Position numbers and translations under genes: made by a program
Shown here: piece after piece, positions 10,465 through 59,347 of the stretch
Layout: each line of letters starts with the position of its first letter
Position numbering within the stretch: the stretch's first letter is position 1
NCBI RefSeq assembly: GCF_000213655.1
Contig: NC_015554.1
Location: forward strand, 496,001 to 560,000
Direction: 5' to 3'
Origin: Alteromonas naphthalenivorans
Lineage (GTDB): Bacteria > Pseudomonadota > Gammaproteobacteria > Enterobacterales > Alteromonadaceae
DNA: 64,000 bases
The notes under the pieces: model-generated
What the model was told of the DNA's origin: nothing
What the model saw: only the letters and a program-made list of their open reading frames with translations
Databases searched by the model: none

Positions 10465-10480
10465 CTGTATATACACACAG
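10465..10480. promoter_or_regulatory. LexA-like palindrome upstream of the dcw cluster
   Basis: CTGTATATACACACAG keeps both invariant LexA half-sites (CTGT-N8-ACAG) with an AT-rich core. It lies about 45 bases upstream of the putative mraZ -35 element and 180 bases upstream of the mraZ start. A binding role is inferred from the match alone. Confidence 0.45.
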
Positions 10481-52632: not shown

Positions 52633-53874
52633 ATGACGACTTTAACTCGATTTTTGGCAATTCTAAGCCTTACAGCACTTGTCGCCGCATGTGGTAGCGA
52701 CGATACGGATCCTGGCCAGCAAATGCATGCGAATGCGGGCATTCCTGTAGATGTTGCGCCAGTGGTCTCGCAGCGTTTAACTGAGTGGGACAGTTTTACT
52801 GGCCGTTTAGAAGCGCCGCAAACGGTATCGCTTCGCCCACGTGTTTCAGGCTACATTGAATTTGTAGCGTTTGAAGAAGGCGAATATGTAGAGCAGGGCG
52901 AAACCTTATTCCTTATTGATAACCGCGCTTTTAAAGCAGAAGTTGAGCGTTTAACCGCGCAACTTGAAGAAGCAAAAAGCCGTTACGACTTATCTGTGCA
53001 AAGTTACGACAGAGTCGTAAAACTTCGTAAAACCCAAGCGGTTTCACAAGAGGTGCTAGATGAGCGTTTAGCGGGTAAGAATCAAGCTTTTGCTAGCATC
53101 AATCAAACGAAAGCGGCATTAGACGTTGCTCGTTTAAATCGCGGTTTTGCCCGTGTTGAAGCGCCAATCTCTGGCCGTGTGTCTCGGGCAAACATCACCG
53201 AAGGTAACTATGTAACGGCAGGACAGTCTGAGCTTACCAGCATCGTATCTACTCATCAGCTTTACGCTTACTTCGATATTGATGAGCAAACCTACCTAAA
53301 TTACGTAAGTAGCGATGGTAAAGCAGATTCTGCGGTAAACGACCAAGCGGTGGCTATGCGTCTTGCCAATGAGCAAGACTATGGTCACTGGGGACAAATC
53401 GATTTTGTCGATAATCAAGTGAATGGCAATACGGGTACCCTTCGTGTTCGCGCGGTTTTCAACAACGAAAATGGCCGTTTAATGCCGGGTTTATTTACCC
53501 ACTTGAAACTAGCGGGTGATACCAACGAGCAGGGCATTTTAATTAAAGAAAAAGCGATAGGTACCGACCTTAACAACAAATTTGTATTGGTGGTAAACAC
53601 CGACAATAAAGTGGAATACCGCGCTGTTACCTTGGGTGACAAAGTAGGTAGCATGCGCATTATTCAAAGTGGCCTAGTAGCTGGCGACACCATTGTAGTT
53701 GATGGCCTTCAGCGCGTACGTCCAGGAGCTGTTGTTGCGCCAAACCAGGTTGATATGGGTGATAAAGAAGCACTAGCAAGCCTACAAAATTGGCAGGCAC
53801 GTGTAGATAACGTAACAAATTTGGCTAACGTTGATGCGCTAACTGGTAGCGTTGCCGGTACTGGAATTAACTAA
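52633..53874 (+). CDS. RND efflux periplasmic adaptor lipoprotein (AcrA/MexE family)
   Basis: Membrane-fusion protein of a multidrug RND pump. The start at 52633 gives a classic lipoprotein signal with lipobox LVAAC, so the mature protein is acylated and inner-membrane anchored. Barrel-sandwich halves RPRVSGYIEFVAFEEGEYVEQG and RVEAPISGRVSRANITEGNYV flank a helical hairpin (about 95-155). The beta-barrel domain follows. Length 413. TAATG overlap with the pump gene. No outer-membrane factor gene follows, so TolC is presumably supplied from elsewhere. Confidence 0.93.
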   Translation: MTTLTRFLAILSLTALVAACGSDDTDPGQQMHANAGIPVDVAPVVSQRLTEWDSFTGRLEAPQTVSLRPRVSGYIEFVAFEEGEYVEQGETLFLIDNRAFKAEVERLTAQLEEAKSRYDLSVQSYDRVVKLRKTQAVSQEVLDERLAGKNQAFASINQTKAALDVARLNRGFARVEAPISGRVSRANITEGNYVTAGQSELTSIVSTHQLYAYFDIDEQTYLNYVSSDGKADSAVNDQAVAMRLANEQDYGHWGQIDFVDNQVNGNTGTLRVRAVFNNENGRLMPGLFTHLKLAGDTNEQGILIKEKAIGTDLNNKFVLVVNTDNKVEYRAVTLGDKVGSMRIIQSGLVAGDTIVVDGLQRVRPGAVVAPNQVDMGDKEALASLQNWQARVDNVTNLANVDALTGSVAGTGIN

Positions 53875-56800
53875 TGAATTTTTCGCAATTTTTCATTCGC
53901 CGCCCTATCTTTGCAGGTGTACTAAGCCTGCTCATTTTCATTGGCGGCGCCATTGCTGTTTGGCAACTACCTATCACAGAATACCCAGAAGTGGTGCCAC
54001 CTACGGTTGTGGTAACGGCTAACTATCCTGGCGCAAATCCTAAGGTGATAGCTGAAACTGTGGCTACGCCCCTAGAGCAAGAGATTAATGGCGTAGAAGA
54101 TATGATTTATATGTCTTCGCAGGCCACATCTGATGGGCGTATGACCCTTACCATTACGTTTGCCATTGGTACCGACCCTGATGATGCCACTACGCTAGTA
54201 CAAAACCGTGTTAACCGCGCCACTCCGCGATTGCCACAGGAAGTACAGCGCTTAGGTATTGTTACCGAAAAATCGTCACCAGATTTAACGATGGTGGTGC
54301 ATTTAACGTCGCCTGATAAACGTTACGACATGCTTTATTTGTCTAACTATGCCGACCAGTTTGTGAAAGATGAACTCGCACGTGTTGAAGGGGTAGGGCA
54401 AGTTCGTTTATTTGGTGCTGGTGAATACAGCATGCGTGTATGGCTAGATCCAAACAAGTTGGCTTCACTTCAAATGAACCCTGGCGATGTGGTTACGGCT
54501 ATTTCCGAGCAAAACCAACAAGCGGCGGCAGGAAGTCTAGGCGCACAGCCTACGGGCACCAGTGAGTTTCAGTTACTAATTAATGTACGCGGTCGTCTAG
54601 AAGACGAAAGTGAGTTTGAAAATATCATCGTTAAGACGGGGGATAATGGCCAAATTACCCGCTTGAAAGACGTAGCACGCATTGAGTTAGGTGCCGATTA
54701 CTACACTTTGCGTTCTCTGTTAAACAATAACCCTGCGGCAGCATTACCTATATTTCAGGCACCAGGTTCTAACGCCATTCAAATTTCTGATGACGTGCGT
54801 GCGCGCATGGCCGAGCTAGAAAAAATGTTTCCAGAAGGGTTGGAGTACGACATCGTTTACGACCCCACGGTATTCGTGCGCGGCTCAATTGAAGCGGTGG
54901 TAAATACGTTATTTGAAGCTGTGTTACTGGTTGTTTTGGTTGTTGTACTGTTTTTACAAACCTGGCGCGCCTCTATTATTCCTTTAGTGGCCGTTCCTAT
55001 TTCATTGGTTGGTACTTTTGCGTTTATGCAATTGATGGGCTTTTCGTTAAACGCGCTATCGTTGTTTGGCTTGGTACTGGCTATCGGGATTGTGGTTGAT
55101 GATGCCATTGTGGTGGTGGAAAACGTAGAGCGGAATATTGCCGATGGCAAAGCGCCGTTCGATGCCACTGTGCAAGCCATGAAAGAAGTTACAGGCCCTA
55201 TTATAGCCACCACCTTGGTACTGGCTGCGGTGTTTATCCCTACTGCTTTTATGAGTGGCTTAACGGGTCAATTTTATAAGCAGTTTGCGTTAACGATTAC
55301 CATTTCTACCTTTATTTCGGCGATCAATTCACTAACCCTAAGCCCAGCGCTGTCGGCGTTATTATTAAAGCCTCATGGGCAATCGAAAGATTGGTTAAGC
55401 CGTGGTATGGATAAACTATTTGGCCGTTTTGTATTTACGCCATTTAATAAAATGTTCGATCGCGGAGCCAAAAAATACACAGGCGCTGTAGGTGGGCTTA
55501 TTCGCAAAAGCGGTGTGGTAGTGGTGCTTTATGCCGGTTTATTAGGCCTAACCTATTTCCAGTTTGCTAACACGCCTACTGGCTATGTACCACCGCAAGA
55601 TAAGCAGTACCTTATTGCATTTGCTCAACTTCCTAATGCATCGTCGCTAGATAGAACCGAGGAAGTGGTACGTGAAATGTCACGAATTGCGATGGAGCAC
55701 CCTGGGGTTTCTGATGCAGTAGCGTTTCCAGGTTTGAATATTAATGGCTTCACCAATAGCCCAAGTTCCGGTGTGCTGTTTACGCCGCTAAAGCCTTTTA
55801 GTGAGCGCCAAAGTCCAGAGCTTTCAGCCGGTGCAATTGCGATGCAATTAAACCAGCAATTTGGTTCTATTAAAGGGGCGTATGTGGCTATATTCCCGCC
55901 ACCACCGGTAATGGGGCTTGGCACCATTGGTGGGTTTAGGCTGCAAGTTCAAGACAGAGGAAATTTGGGTTTTGCTGAACTTGAAAAAGTAACTCAAGAG
56001 GTGATTGGCAAAGCGTGGGCGCACCCTGCATTAACCGGTAACTTCACTAGCTTTACGGTTAATGTACCTCAGTTAAATGTGGATGTAGATCGCGAGAAAG
56101 CCGTTAGCCAAGGGGTAAATATTGGCACCTTGTTTGACACCATGCAGGCGTATTTAGGCTCGGTGTATGTGAACGATTTCAACTTGTTCGGTAGAACCTA
56201 TCAGGTGAATGTTCAGGCCGATGCACAGTACCGCCAAGACGTTGAAAACATCACTCAATTTAAGGTGCGAAACGATAAAGGGGATATGATCCCGCTAGGT
56301 TCATTCCTAGATATTCAGCACAGTGCAGAGCCAGACAGGGTGATGCATTACAACGGCTATGTCACCGCTGAAGTGAATGGCTCACCAGCGCCGGGCTACA
56401 GTTCAGATCAAGCCAAAGCCGCGATTGAGCAAATTCTTGATGAAACGCTTCCGCTAGGCATGACCTACGAGTGGACCGAGCTAACCTATCAGCAAATATT
56501 GGCAGGTAATGCGTCGGCCTTTATTTTCCCGTTAGTCGTACTGTTGGTGTTCTTAGTGTTGGCGGCACAGTATGAAAGCTTACGCTTACCACTGGCTATT
56601 ATATTAATTGTTCCCATGACCTTGCTAAGCGCATTAATTGGTGTGGTGATTTATGGCGGCGACAACAACATATTTACCCAAATTGGCTTAATTGTGTTGG
56701 TGGGGCTTGCTACTAAAAATGCCATTCTGATTGTGGAATTTGCCAAAGAACTACAAGACAAGGGTATGGACGCACTATCAGCCATTAAAGAGGCCAGCAA

Positions 56801-56996
56801 GTTGCGTCTTCGCCCCATCCTGATGACATCGATTGCTTTCATTATGGGTGTGTTACCTATGGTGCTTTCCACTGGTGCGGGTGCAGAAATGCGTCAAGCC
56901 ATGGGCGTAGCGGTATTCTCAGGCATGATAGGGGTTACCGTGTTCGGCTTAATTCTTACCCCTGTATTTTACTATTTGTTGAAACGTAATGGTTAA
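53874..56996 (+). CDS. Multidrug efflux RND permease (AcrB/MexF, HAE1 family)
   Basis: Proton-driven inner-membrane drug exporter. The 1040 residues begin NFSQFFIRRPIFAGVLSLLI. The TM4 proton-relay pair is present in GIVVDDAIVVVENVER. The segments PTGYVPPQDKQYLIAFAQLP and the C-terminal STGAGAEMRQAMGVAVFSGM are typical of HAE1 pumps. The best match by feel is the MexF subgroup, which fits the adjacent LysR regulator. Substrates cannot be read from sequence. Confidence 0.95.
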   Translation: MNFSQFFIRRPIFAGVLSLLIFIGGAIAVWQLPITEYPEVVPPTVVVTANYPGANPKVIAETVATPLEQEINGVEDMIYMSSQATSDGRMTLTITFAIGTDPDDATTLVQNRVNRATPRLPQEVQRLGIVTEKSSPDLTMVVHLTSPDKRYDMLYLSNYADQFVKDELARVEGVGQVRLFGAGEYSMRVWLDPNKLASLQMNPGDVVTAISEQNQQAAAGSLGAQPTGTSEFQLLINVRGRLEDESEFENIIVKTGDNGQITRLKDVARIELGADYYTLRSLLNNNPAAALPIFQAPGSNAIQISDDVRARMAELEKMFPEGLEYDIVYDPTVFVRGSIEAVVNTLFEAVLLVVLVVVLFLQTWRASIIPLVAVPISLVGTFAFMQLMGFSLNALSLFGLVLAIGIVVDDAIVVVENVERNIADGKAPFDATVQAMKEVTGPIIATTLVLAAVFIPTAFMSGLTGQFYKQFALTITISTFISAINSLTLSPALSALLLKPHGQSKDWLSRGMDKLFGRFVFTPFNKMFDRGAKKYTGAVGGLIRKSGVVVVLYAGLLGLTYFQFANTPTGYVPPQDKQYLIAFAQLPNASSLDRTEEVVREMSRIAMEHPGVSDAVAFPGLNINGFTNSPSSGVLFTPLKPFSERQSPELSAGAIAMQLNQQFGSIKGAYVAIFPPPPVMGLGTIGGFRLQVQDRGNLGFAELEKVTQEVIGKAWAHPALTGNFTSFTVNVPQLNVDVDREKAVSQGVNIGTLFDTMQAYLGSVYVNDFNLFGRTYQVNVQADAQYRQDVENITQFKVRNDKGDMIPLGSFLDIQHSAEPDRVMHYNGYVTAEVNGSPAPGYSSDQAKAAIEQILDETLPLGMTYEWTELTYQQILAGNASAFIFPLVVLLVFLVLAAQYESLRLPLAIILIVPMTLLSALIGVVIYGGDNNIFTQIGLIVLVGLATKNAILIVEFAKELQDKGMDALSAIKEASKLRLRPILMTSIAFIMGVLPMVLSTGAGAEMRQAMGVAVFSGMIGVTVFGLILTPVFYYLLKRNG

Positions 56997-57047: not shown

Positions 57048-57077
57048 AGGCCACTTAATTTAAGTGGCCTTTTTTTA
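57048..57077 (+). terminator. Rho-independent terminator of the RND operon
   Basis: 11-base arms AGGCCACTTAA and TTAAGTGGCCT are followed by seven Ts. A second hairpin (GCCTCC/GGAGGC) lies just upstream at about 57018-57043. Confidence 0.93.
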
Positions 57078-57150
57078 TGGTAGGCATAGGGGATGGGCCA
57101 CAATGGCTCAACGCTACACCCCTTTATTTTGTGATAGCAGAATGTATTTG

Positions 57151-57170
57151 TACTGTATATTTATACATGA
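57151..57170. promoter_or_regulatory. LexA (SOS) box upstream of radical SAM repair gene
   Basis: TACTGTATATTTATACATGA agrees with the E. coli LexA consensus at 17 of 20 positions. The left half-site CTGT is perfect and the right reads ACAT instead of ACAG. It lies 113 bases upstream of the gene start, where a promoter is expected. Confidence 0.75.
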
Positions 57171-57282
57171 TATAACGGCTTTGTAATCTAAAAACCACCT
57201 ATAAATACACACTTCTATTTTCGTATTTTATTACCGAACCCGCTGATTTTGTGTATTTGCTTAGAGAAAGTGACAATTTGCA

Positions 57283-58524
57283 ATGCATGACAAACTGATT
57301 CAAAAACTCGAAATTCTCTCAGATGCAGCCAAGTATGACGCTTCCTGTGCAAGCGGTTCGGCAGGTAAACGAAAGGCAGGTAAAACTGATAAAACTGGTA
57401 TTGGTTCTCTTACTGGCGGAATGGGTATATGCCACAGTTTTACTCCTGATGGACGGTGTGTTTCTTTACTGAAGATACTCATGACAAACTACTGTATTTA
57501 CGATTGTCACTATTGCATCAATAGAGTATCGAGTAGTGTTCAACGTGCCCGTTTCACGGTCAAAGAAACGGTTGAGCTAACACTGAATTTTTATAAGCGT
57601 AACTATATCGAAGGTTTATTTCTTAGTTCAGGCATTGTCGGTTCGCCAGACCTTACAATGGAAAGCATGGTGCGTATTGCCAAATCCTTACGTATCGATC
57701 ACGGATTTAAGGGGTATATTCATCTTAAAACCATTCCCAATGCATCGCCTGAACTTCAGGCCGAAGCAGGTTTATACGCTGACAGGCTTAGTATTAATGT
57801 AGAAATGCCTACCCAGCCTTCATTAAATCAATACGCGCCCGAAAAAGATCTCGGCGCTATTCATAGCGCGATGAATACCCTGAAAGACAAAATTACTGAG
57901 CATAAAGTAGATAAAACGCATACAGGCAAACGTCCTCCTCGTTTTGCCCCTGGCGGGCAGTCCACTCAAATGATTATAGGAGCCGATGGCTCAAATGATA
58001 AAACCATCTTGGGAGCGAGTGTTCAACTTTATAGCCAACAAAAGCTGCGCCGAGTTTATTATTCTGCGTTCTCGCCAATACCTGATGCATCAGAAGTTTT
58101 GCCTTTGAAACCTGCGCCTTTGGTGCGAGAGCATCGTCTTTATCAAGCTGATTGGCTACTGCGTTTCTATGGATTTACGCTTGACGAAATCGTGCACGAT
58201 GACATGCTTGATATGGACCACGATCCTAAACTTGCGTGGGCATTGCGCAATCGTCATGTGTTTCCCATTGATTTAAATAAAGCAGACAAACTCATGTTGT
58301 TAAGAGTGCCAGGTCTTGGTGCACGCACCGTACAAAAAATTCTGGCGATTCGTCGTTATACAAAGCTTAGCTGGATGGATCTCACGAAATTGCGTCTGCC
58401 ATTACAAAAGCTGAAACCTTTCATTAGCGTAAGTGATTACTCACCTGCTATTCACTTACTCGATAGTAATAATTTTGAGTTGCAGTTCAAACAGCCGAAG
58501 CAGTTTGAGTTATTCGGCGCCTAA
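57283..58524 (+). CDS. Putative DNA modification/repair radical SAM protein (TIGR03916 type)
   Basis: Radical SAM enzyme whose [4Fe-4S] cluster is bound by the CX3CX2C motif in NYCIYDCHYC (about residues 69-78). It starts with a Cys/Gly-containing N-terminus and TGGMGICHSF. The C-terminus carries a helix-hairpin-helix, LLRVPGLGARTVQKILAIRR, that binds DNA non-specifically. The family is predicted to act in DNA repair or modification by analogy with spore photoproduct lyase and by its constant pairing with the next gene; no reaction is established. Length 413. A LexA box lies upstream. Confidence 0.88.
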   Translation: MHDKLIQKLEILSDAAKYDASCASGSAGKRKAGKTDKTGIGSLTGGMGICHSFTPDGRCVSLLKILMTNYCIYDCHYCINRVSSSVQRARFTVKETVELTLNFYKRNYIEGLFLSSGIVGSPDLTMESMVRIAKSLRIDHGFKGYIHLKTIPNASPELQAEAGLYADRLSINVEMPTQPSLNQYAPEKDLGAIHSAMNTLKDKITEHKVDKTHTGKRPPRFAPGGQSTQMIIGADGSNDKTILGASVQLYSQQKLRRVYYSAFSPIPDASEVLPLKPAPLVREHRLYQADWLLRFYGFTLDEIVHDDMLDMDHDPKLAWALRNRHVFPIDLNKADKLMLLRVPGLGARTVQKILAIRRYTKLSWMDLTKLRLPLQKLKPFISVSDYSPAIHLLDSNNFELQFKQPKQFELFGA

Positions 58525-58576
58525 CTGAAGTAGGATTAGCAGTAAGATCAAGATAAAAACAATTACAATCACTTCG

Positions 58577-59347
58577 GTGCCTGGGTACGATGAGTGGCGC
58601 ATTGCAGCAAGAGAATGTTTGGCGCAAGCTATCCCCCCCGAAAATATTATTTGGCAAACTTCAGAGTCTATACAAGACGACCTGTTTGGCGGTGGGGAAC
58701 ACCTTATAGCAGCCAGTAAGCCAAAAGCGAAACACAGCATTCCCAAGTCAGTCTTAACGCTTATCAAATATGCGTTGTGTCACCAAGATGCTAGCCGCTT
58801 CGCATTGTGTTATCGGGTGTTATGGCGTGTTATTTTCGAAAACAAAAACCTTATTCAGTTAAAAACTGATGAAGATATCATGCAACTTATTACGTTAGCC
58901 AAAGCGGTAAAACGCGATGCATATAAAATAAGTGCTTTTTTGAGGTTTCGAGAAGTTAATCATGACGGACAAGAGCACTTTATCGCTTGGTATGAGCCGG
59001 AACATTTTAGCTTAGAGATTAAGCTCGACTTCTTCCAAACTCGTTTTAAAAATATGCGGTGGTCAATATTAACGCCTTATCGGGCTGCCCATTGGGATAC
59101 TGAAAAGCTAGTTTTAGAAGATAACCCCGATCCGAGTGTGTTTCCTAATGACGACCGTATCGAAAAATATTGGCTCACTTATTACGCTAATATTTTTAAT
59201 CCCGCCCGCATCAAAAAGAGCGCAATGTTGAGCTCAATGCCCAAAAAGTACTGGAAGAATATGCCCGAAACAGCTTTGATTGACGATATGATTCGAAATT
59301 CGGATGCGAGAGCGCGCAAAATGATAGTTGATGGGAATAAACGCTAA
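58577..59347 (+). CDS. DUF4130 / TIGR03915-type putative DNA repair protein
   Basis: Partner of the radical SAM gene 52 bases upstream. The 256 residues contain the DUF4130 core: YRVLWRVIFENKNLIQ, AVKRDAYKISAFLRFREV, FIAWYEPEHFSLEI and MRWSILTPYRAAHWD. In other bacteria the same module is often fused to a UdgX-type uracil-DNA glycosylase; no glycosylase domain is present here. The only standard start in frame is the GTG at 58577 without a Shine-Dalgarno. The frame is open to 58529 and the upstream residues (KTITITS) look like a missing first strand, so a non-AUG start is possible. Confidence 0.82.
   Translation: MPGYDEWRIAARECLAQAIPPENIIWQTSESIQDDLFGGGEHLIAASKPKAKHSIPKSVLTLIKYALCHQDASRFALCYRVLWRVIFENKNLIQLKTDEDIMQLITLAKAVKRDAYKISAFLRFREVNHDGQEHFIAWYEPEHFSLEIKLDFFQTRFKNMRWSILTPYRAAHWDTEKLVLEDNPDPSVFPNDDRIEKYWLTYYANIFNPARIKKSAMLSSMPKKYWKNMPETALIDDMIRNSDARARKMIVDGNKR

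Follow-up and report, generated by a model that had tools for sequence, protein, structure and literature searches.

In Alteromonas naphthalenivorans, two adjacent genes encoding a radical S-adenosylmethionine (SAM) protein and a DUF4130 protein probably form a LexA-repressed, clamp-recruited unit that processes DNA lesions. The core of this proposal, which is drawn from sequence comparisons, is the control by LexA together with the recruitment of the radical SAM protein to the replication clamp; docking of the DUF4130 protein stands outside it. The pair is found in a stretch of 64,000 nucleotides (the window), which corresponds to positions 496001-560000 of the 4.97 Mb single-contig genome (NC_015554.1), and positions are given in window coordinates. 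The original prediction, made from the sequence of the window, had proposed that a LexA-like site places this pair under SOS control and that the pair acts in DNA damage repair or modification.

Concerning the proteins, the first gene product matches TIGR03916 over residues 6-401 with 540.4 bits (curated cut-off 343.5), so the radical SAM part of the prediction stands. The helix-hairpin-helix (HhH) that accompanied it is weaker, as its Pfam score of 20.9 bits is under the cut-off of 27. Among solved chains, its profile matches were a ComEA-related chain (E = 0.00088) and RuvA (E = 0.03), and this domain is likely to bind DNA. The radical SAM profile matched solely short stretches of the HhH or of the radical SAM core, in addition to one chain of the endonuclease/exonuclease/phosphatase family (E = 0.03). 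Besides C71, C75 and C78 of the SAM motif, the residues C22, C50 and C59 are invariant in 40/40 aligned sequences. Methylthiotransferases hold a second Fe-S cluster on extra cysteines and, by analogy, C22, C50 and C59, which are located ahead of the SAM motif, could do the same. The presence of a DUF4130 gene just after the radical SAM gene was also corroborated, with 210.6 bits for TIGR03915 (cut-off 112.25) and 117.4 bits for Pfam DUF4130 (cut-off 27). The DUF4130 profile had no match among solved chains up to E = 1. This gene shows ATA at the position where nearly all the orthologues listed have ATG, and the next listed in-frame start is a GTG, so translation may begin at either codon. The radical SAM/DUF4130 family is widespread: the 8,000 candidates scored in the homologue search all matched (at least 8,000 members), and 120 of them were listed. 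COG4277 is taken here to be the same family as TIGR03916.

LexA control of the pair is very probable. The 20-base LexA-like site proposed upstream of the pair was found as described, since TACTGTATATTTATACATGA at 57151-57170 matches 17 of the 20 positions of TACTGTATATATATACAGTA and is the only site of the window with three or fewer mismatches (mean of 0.01 in shuffled sequences). Its core deviates from CTGT-N8-ACAG at the final base, and searching with the exact pattern alone misses it. A matrix was used instead, built from ten boxes upstream of SOS genes of the same genome and excluding the target: recA, lexA (two boxes), an imuA-like gene, two S24/umuD-type genes, dinB and the genes for SSB, a UvrD-family helicase and rmuC. 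The imuA label comes from a RecA match of low score (20.3 bits, with a cut-off of 27). The dinB box is inside the mechanical reading frame, 34 codon-frame bases past its first start, yet before the polymerase domain (from residue 35), and the true dinB start is probably downstream of the box. The operator scored 17.89, whereas the training boxes, each left out in turn, ranged from 14.80 to 23.24. This score was reached by 0 of 4,000,000 positions of simulated DNA with the composition of the window, and by 3 of 4,000,000 with the AT-rich composition of upstream regions (36% G+C). The shuffles and this rarity rule out a chance origin. Across the genome, 44 sites are within three mismatches of CTGTATATATATACAG versus 10 for the reversed pattern, and the operator is among the 14 sites within two mismatches. 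The genome also encodes LexA (PF01726 match, 102.4 bits). Hence, the operator fits the genome's own LexA boxes and is kept in orthologues, as looked for in a member of the LexA regulon, and LexA is inferred to bind it and to make the pair inducible by DNA damage.

The operator overlaps a promoter-like block. This block, TTGTAC-TGTATATTTATACATGA-TATAAC, is shared by most of the upstream regions aligned, whereas their flanks diverge, and it looks like a weak -35 hexamer followed by an extended -10 at a spacing of 17 bases. The promoter scan of the region did not list it, its -35 at 3/6 matches being under the scan minimum. The T that breaks the palindrome of the operator also serves as the first base of TGn in the extended -10. 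Of the 20 distinct regions upstream of the gene in the Alteromonas group, one has no box, and TGnTAYAA follows 14 of the 15 boxes ending in ACAT and 0 of the 4 boxes ending otherwise. We infer that this base is common to operator and promoter, which would put LexA across the promoter spacer.

The comparison of the regions upstream of orthologues, fixed beforehand as a check that could refute LexA control, was carried out and the claim survived it. The Alteromonas group comprises 31 loci with the 20 distinct regions mentioned above, and a box (at least 12 of 16 matches) is present in 19 of them while the flanks diverge. Among all the loci compared, those with the exact CTGT-N8-ACAG include L004, L009, L017 and L034.

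Elsewhere, the gene mostly carries the LexA motif of its host lineage. Motifs were counted in the interval from -200 to +20 relative to the start of the gene, and the expectation was taken from the density of the same motif elsewhere in those loci; these whole loci are richer in coding sequence than upstream DNA, so the expectation is somewhat low for AT-rich boxes, which is of minor importance for GAAC-N7-GAAC. The counts exclude L050 and L080, which duplicate the genes of L027 and L021, and L024 and L025, whose genomes are those of L116 and L134. Also excluded are matches scoring under the family cut-off (L055-L069 and L087-L096), six places above the cut-off without a locus, and two places below it, near 245 bits, also without a locus. 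Most motifs of the panel are the known LexA motifs of their lineages, and that of Alphaproteobacteria, GTTC-N7-GTTC, is described in the available text of PMC8565304. GAAC-N7-GAAC was found in 16 of the 17 alphaproteobacterial loci (0.05 expected). In the other Gammaproteobacteria, CTGT-N8-ACAG was exact in 7/11 (0.00 expected) and present in 8/11 with one mismatch allowed (0.67 expected). In the Halanaerobium phylum, GAAC-N4-GTTC was exact in 8/30 (0.00 expected) and present in 21/30 with one mismatch (2.0 expected). The Clostridioides difficile LexA paper, which does not name the present gene in its accessible text under the words searched, lists GAAC....GTTT sites, which supports allowing one mismatch.

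Motifs of the wrong lineage were absent: the alphaproteobacterial motif from gammaproteobacterial and Alteromonas loci, the gammaproteobacterial motif from alphaproteobacterial loci, the Gram-positive motif from alphaproteobacterial and other gammaproteobacterial loci, and both proteobacterial motifs from Halanaerobium-phylum loci. Four composition-control motifs had no upstream match, and one control motif gave 0 in the Halanaerobium phylum (2.0 expected). The presence of LexA was examined in 8 genomes. Neither the genome of L075, the only alphaproteobacterial locus without an exact box, nor that of L109, which lacks both box and partner, has a LexA match. The LexA motifs of these lineages are unrelated and, therefore, this test is independent of shared ancestry of the sites.

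The second part of the proposal concerns the C-terminus of the radical SAM protein, which reads QFELFGA. The available part of PMC9690074 gives QL(S/D)LF as the bacterial clamp-binding consensus, in C-terminal position. A relaxed pattern, Q[LMFI]x[LMI][FLW] in the last 45 residues, with tail shuffling as the expectation, was present in 30 of 40 diverse aligned loci (1.2 expected), in 115 of the 120 homologues listed, the best 120 of 8,000 (4.3 expected), and in 21 of the 22 sequences left once redundancy was removed (0.36 expected). Outside the tail, the same proteins have no match to it, and the tail surrounding the pattern is variable in length and sequence. Considering the last 60 residues, the tag is present in 22/30 proteins of the Halanaerobium phylum, 14/17 of Alphaproteobacteria (L086, at a contig end, is cut off), 8/11 of the other Gammaproteobacteria and 3/8 of the Verrucomicrobia above the cut-off. 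Based on these motif statistics, the radical SAM protein is likely to dock onto the clamp, and the tag indicates where the enzyme may act. In the literature searched, no link between the TIGR03916 family and the replication clamp was found.

In the DUF4130 protein, Q..L[FWL] is found within the first 80 residues of 74 of the 120 homologues listed (5.3 expected) and once in residues 81-260; it is also found within the first 90 residues at 19 of 37 aligned loci (2.0 expected) and never later. This tag is less certain because these sets hold many close relatives, and docking of the DUF4130 protein is a tentative suggestion, perhaps a little short of probable. The strain's own DinB has a clamp-like tail as well, HQLPLPLEGE.

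Regarding relatives outside the family, 22 Verrucomicrobia radical SAM/HhH proteins below the cut-off (L135-L156, where L139 is a mis-called frame to be disregarded) have no DUF4130 gene within the locus and possibly have a different function. These proteins stop shortly past the HhH, none of the 22 has the tag, and their upstream regions are not enriched in boxes (2 versus 1.9 and 3 versus 2.8 expected).

Several observations weigh against control by LexA and recruitment to the clamp. The operator ends in ACAT instead of ACAG, and one Alteromonas (L012/L037) has no box though its genome has LexA. The same is true of the gammaproteobacterial loci L044, L045 and L047; in the genome of L045, lexA is preceded by TTAGTAGTAATACTACTAA, presumably a Xanthomonas-type operator, and the radical SAM gene lacks that palindrome too. 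In the Halanaerobium phylum, 9/30 loci have no site with up to one mismatch, including L103 and L104, whose genomes have LexA, and the reversed-order control GTTC-N4-GAAC was found in 5/30 (1.8 expected). The Verrucomicrobia above the cut-off show the motif in 2/8 (0.66 expected) and the Planctomycetota in 0/3. The relatives below the cut-off are of limited use as a control for the box, given that it is seldom seen even in true members from Verrucomicrobia. As for the tag, QFELF differs from the published consensus at positions 2 and 3, and the strict pattern is absent in 10 of the 40 loci.

The association between both genes is widespread. A DUF4130 neighbor is present in 31/31 loci of the Alteromonas group, 11/11 of the other Gammaproteobacteria, 16/17 of the Alphaproteobacteria (the contig ends in L086, and in L079 the gene starts about 550 bases past the stop), 27/30 of the Halanaerobium phylum (the contig ends in L115) and 6/8 of the Verrucomicrobia above the cut-off, where L134, one of the two without it, has DUF4130 elsewhere in the genome. 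In 11 loci, Pfam confirmed the fusion of a uracil-DNA glycosylase (UDG) domain to DUF4130. This fusion, and the description of the COG1573-COG4277 operon in the available text of PMC8565304, would favor a pair that is truly controlled by LexA and works in base excision centered on UDG. Nevertheless, DUF4130 is the only domain found in the second gene of the window and the pair has no UDG domain, so its membership in a UDG system was rejected; the two UDG-superfamily genes of this genome are located elsewhere. Moreover, boxes occur with and without the fusion, in 5/5 fused and 9/10 unfused alphaproteobacterial loci and in 2/4 fused and 5/7 unfused gammaproteobacterial ones. The alphaproteobacterial count of unfused loci takes those whose whole partner was seen, thus omitting L079 (cut) and L086 (partner unseen), which both carry boxes. 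A UDG-centered function is therefore unlikely for this pair. The core unit would be the radical SAM protein plus DUF4130, and from this distribution the published description of the operon as UDG-based excision is not general.

It is similarly improbable that the pair is an accessory of translesion synthesis within the SOS mutagenesis machinery without repairing lesions itself. The clamp-type tag resembles that of translesion factors such as ImuB (in the part of PMC10421592 available), SOS boxes precede imuA-like, umuD-type and dinB genes in this genome, and DUF4130 was termed a predicted mutagenesis-related enzyme (PMC3765255). On the other hand, the conserved CX3CX2C motif and the three further invariant cysteines indicate chemistry.

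Two other explanations have very little probability. The box could belong to the promoter or be recognized by a different regulator that binds palindromes, given that it ends in ACAT and overlaps the conserved extended -10, but the same gene carries unrelated LexA motifs in other lineages, the box is exact at the four loci listed above, and boxes ending in ACAT or ACAC precede SMC/SbcC-like and FAN1 helix-turn-helix (HTH)-domain genes in this genome. Modification of intact DNA as a defense or epigenetic mark would agree with the modification/repair name of the family and with its patchy presence (17/59 genomes of the genus), but the processing of damage agrees better with SOS control and with a clamp tag. 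In addition, the PADLOC models for anti-phage defense gave no match.

Taking the LexA-controlled, clamp-recruited unit as the working model, LexA would occupy the spacer of the conserved promoter, flanked by the -35 and the extended -10, and block RNA polymerase, and its RecA-triggered cleavage would lift repression, inducing both genes upon damage. The radical SAM protein would contact DNA through the HhH and be brought to the clamp by its C-terminal QxxLF tag, and the DUF4130 protein, which in many cases has a QxxLF of its own, would work alongside. Both could then process a lesion by radical chemistry at stalled or recently copied DNA; direct radical processing of the lesion is rather probable. 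Some lineages have a fused glycosylase of the UDG superfamily, which may complete the process by excision, although this strain's pair has none.

The maximum-likelihood tree of 40 sequences groups the Alteromonas proteins with three Micavibrio-like alphaproteobacterial proteins (support 100), within a larger clade which also holds Acetobacter (support 100) and the gammaproteobacterial metagenome-assembled genome L017. The remaining ten Gammaproteobacteria are outside this clade, and support is weak at the deeper nodes (39-85). Boxes are of the alpha type in the Micavibrio-like loci and of the gamma type in Alteromonas, so the type of operator followed the host. A broader and more tentative picture, which may well fail in some of its parts, is that TIGR03916 comprises clamp-tethered radical SAM repair enzymes in which both partners dock and directly repair a fork-blocking lesion, with UDG as an option, and that the pair was transferred between Alpha- and Gammaproteobacteria and regained a LexA operator of the type used by its new host.

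SOS control of this operon type has already been reported in other phyla, according to the accessible text of PMC8565304 and PMC3828012. The former infers LexA-type control of the COG1573-COG4277 operon in Bacteroidetes and cites work in Verrucomicrobia and Caulobacter (Alphaproteobacteria) for an SOS-controlled UDG repair system. As far as that text goes, this operon resembles the pair of the window in having two genes, an adjacent radical SAM/HhH partner and a LexA-type motif upstream, and differs in being described as UDG-based, whereas the window has an unfused DUF4130 and a CTGT-N8-ACAG-type operator. For CAC3343-CAC3344 of Clostridium acetobutylicum, LexA control of this same operon type was proposed from footprinting and expression (PMC3828012, available part), with a Gram-positive LexA motif; that control is a prediction, accompanied by array data from cells stressed with butanol and butyrate. 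Radical SAM DNA-repair genes of the SplB (spore photoproduct lyase) and SplB-like kind are described as SOS-regulated in several species. The present family adds to this common ground the HhH, the clamp-type tail, three further invariant cysteines and the DUF4130 partner; membership in SplB was rejected, since only TIGR03916 was matched in NCBIfam at E up to 0.001. The mycobacterial mutasome protein ImuB also belongs to a damage-inducible cassette and has a clamp-binding peptide, QLPLWG (PMC10421592, in the text available), but it is a polymerase-fold protein and not a radical SAM enzyme. Radical SAM proteins whose family is not named in the accessible text were reported in a LexA regulon (PMC9380542) and in Gram-positive and Balneolaeota LexA regulons (PMC7739468). 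Caulobacter has four COG1573 genes according to the part of PMC1839093 available, and the accessible Caulobacter SOS literature, examined by word search, had no mention of the gene under the words used. No study of an Alteromonas SOS regulon was found among the papers listed, judged by title.

Table 1. Coordinates of the features of the radical SAM/DUF4130 region in the window.
Feature	Position	Strand	Details
Intrinsic-terminator-like stem (10 pairs) and T run	57048-57070	+	After the upstream gene
-35-like hexamer TTGTAC (3/6)	57148-57153	+	17 bases 5' of the -10; in the conserved block
LexA-type operator CTGTATATTTATACAT	57153-57168	+	Inside the promoter spacer; matrix score and conservation in orthologues
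Extended -10 TGATATAAC	57168-57176	+	T is also the final operator base
Radical SAM protein, 413 aa, TIGR03916 / rSAM_link_UDG	57283-58524	+	Profile match
CX3CX2C motif (C71, C75, C78)	57493-57516	+	Alignment
Helix-hairpin-helix, residues 329-357	58267-58353	+	Weak matches
Predicted beta-clamp-binding pentapeptide QFELF, residues 407-411 of 413	58501-58515	+	Pattern and homologues
DUF4130 / TIGR03915 protein without UDG domain	58553-59347	+	Start ATA (58553) or GTG (58577)
Possible second clamp-binding pentapeptide QDDLF in DUF4130	58673-58687	+	

The upstream neighbor (53874-56996, 1040 aa) encodes a product that presumably resembles an RND pump. It is followed by the terminator-like stem of Table 1, beyond which the pair may have its own transcript start; terminator-like sites in the region were 3 versus 2.7 expected in shuffles and are hence suggestive only.

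Other LexA-type sites of the genome were also observed. The best site of the window is CTGTATATACACACAG at 10465-10480 (score 19.98; the third-ranked site scored 10.37), 180 bases ahead of mraZ. A site at -195 to -199 is found in 18/20 genomes of the genus (11-15 of 16 matches), with an exact CTGT-N8-ACAG in 12. In Escherichia coli, LexA repression of the mraZ division cluster is described in the available text of PMC3265435. A second ACAT-type box, CTGTATATATTTACAT (L168, site 1501-1516), is 26 bases ahead of the SMC/SbcC-like ATPase gene, and another LexA-type box (L172, site 1501-1516) is 31 bases ahead of the gene with the FAN1 HTH domain (L172:3-1469), FAN1 being a family of crosslink-repair nucleases. 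Identical boxes CTGTATTCATATACAG in L163 and L171 (site 1501-1516) are each 16 bases ahead of a 319-codon frame, which in L163 is an IS1595-type transposase and in L171 is found at the same position, so this is possibly an SOS-controlled insertion sequence. Lastly, CTGTACATATAAACAG (L173, site 1501-1516) is immediately upstream of a C5-cytosine methylase gene.

What is new here is this member of the operon type, its promoter layout, the switching of operators and the clamp tag. That SOS control persists in lineages whose LexA motifs are unrelated strongly supports a role in DNA damage, although LexA control backs that role without giving the reaction. Together, SOS control and the clamp tag make this long-unexplained enzyme pair testable.

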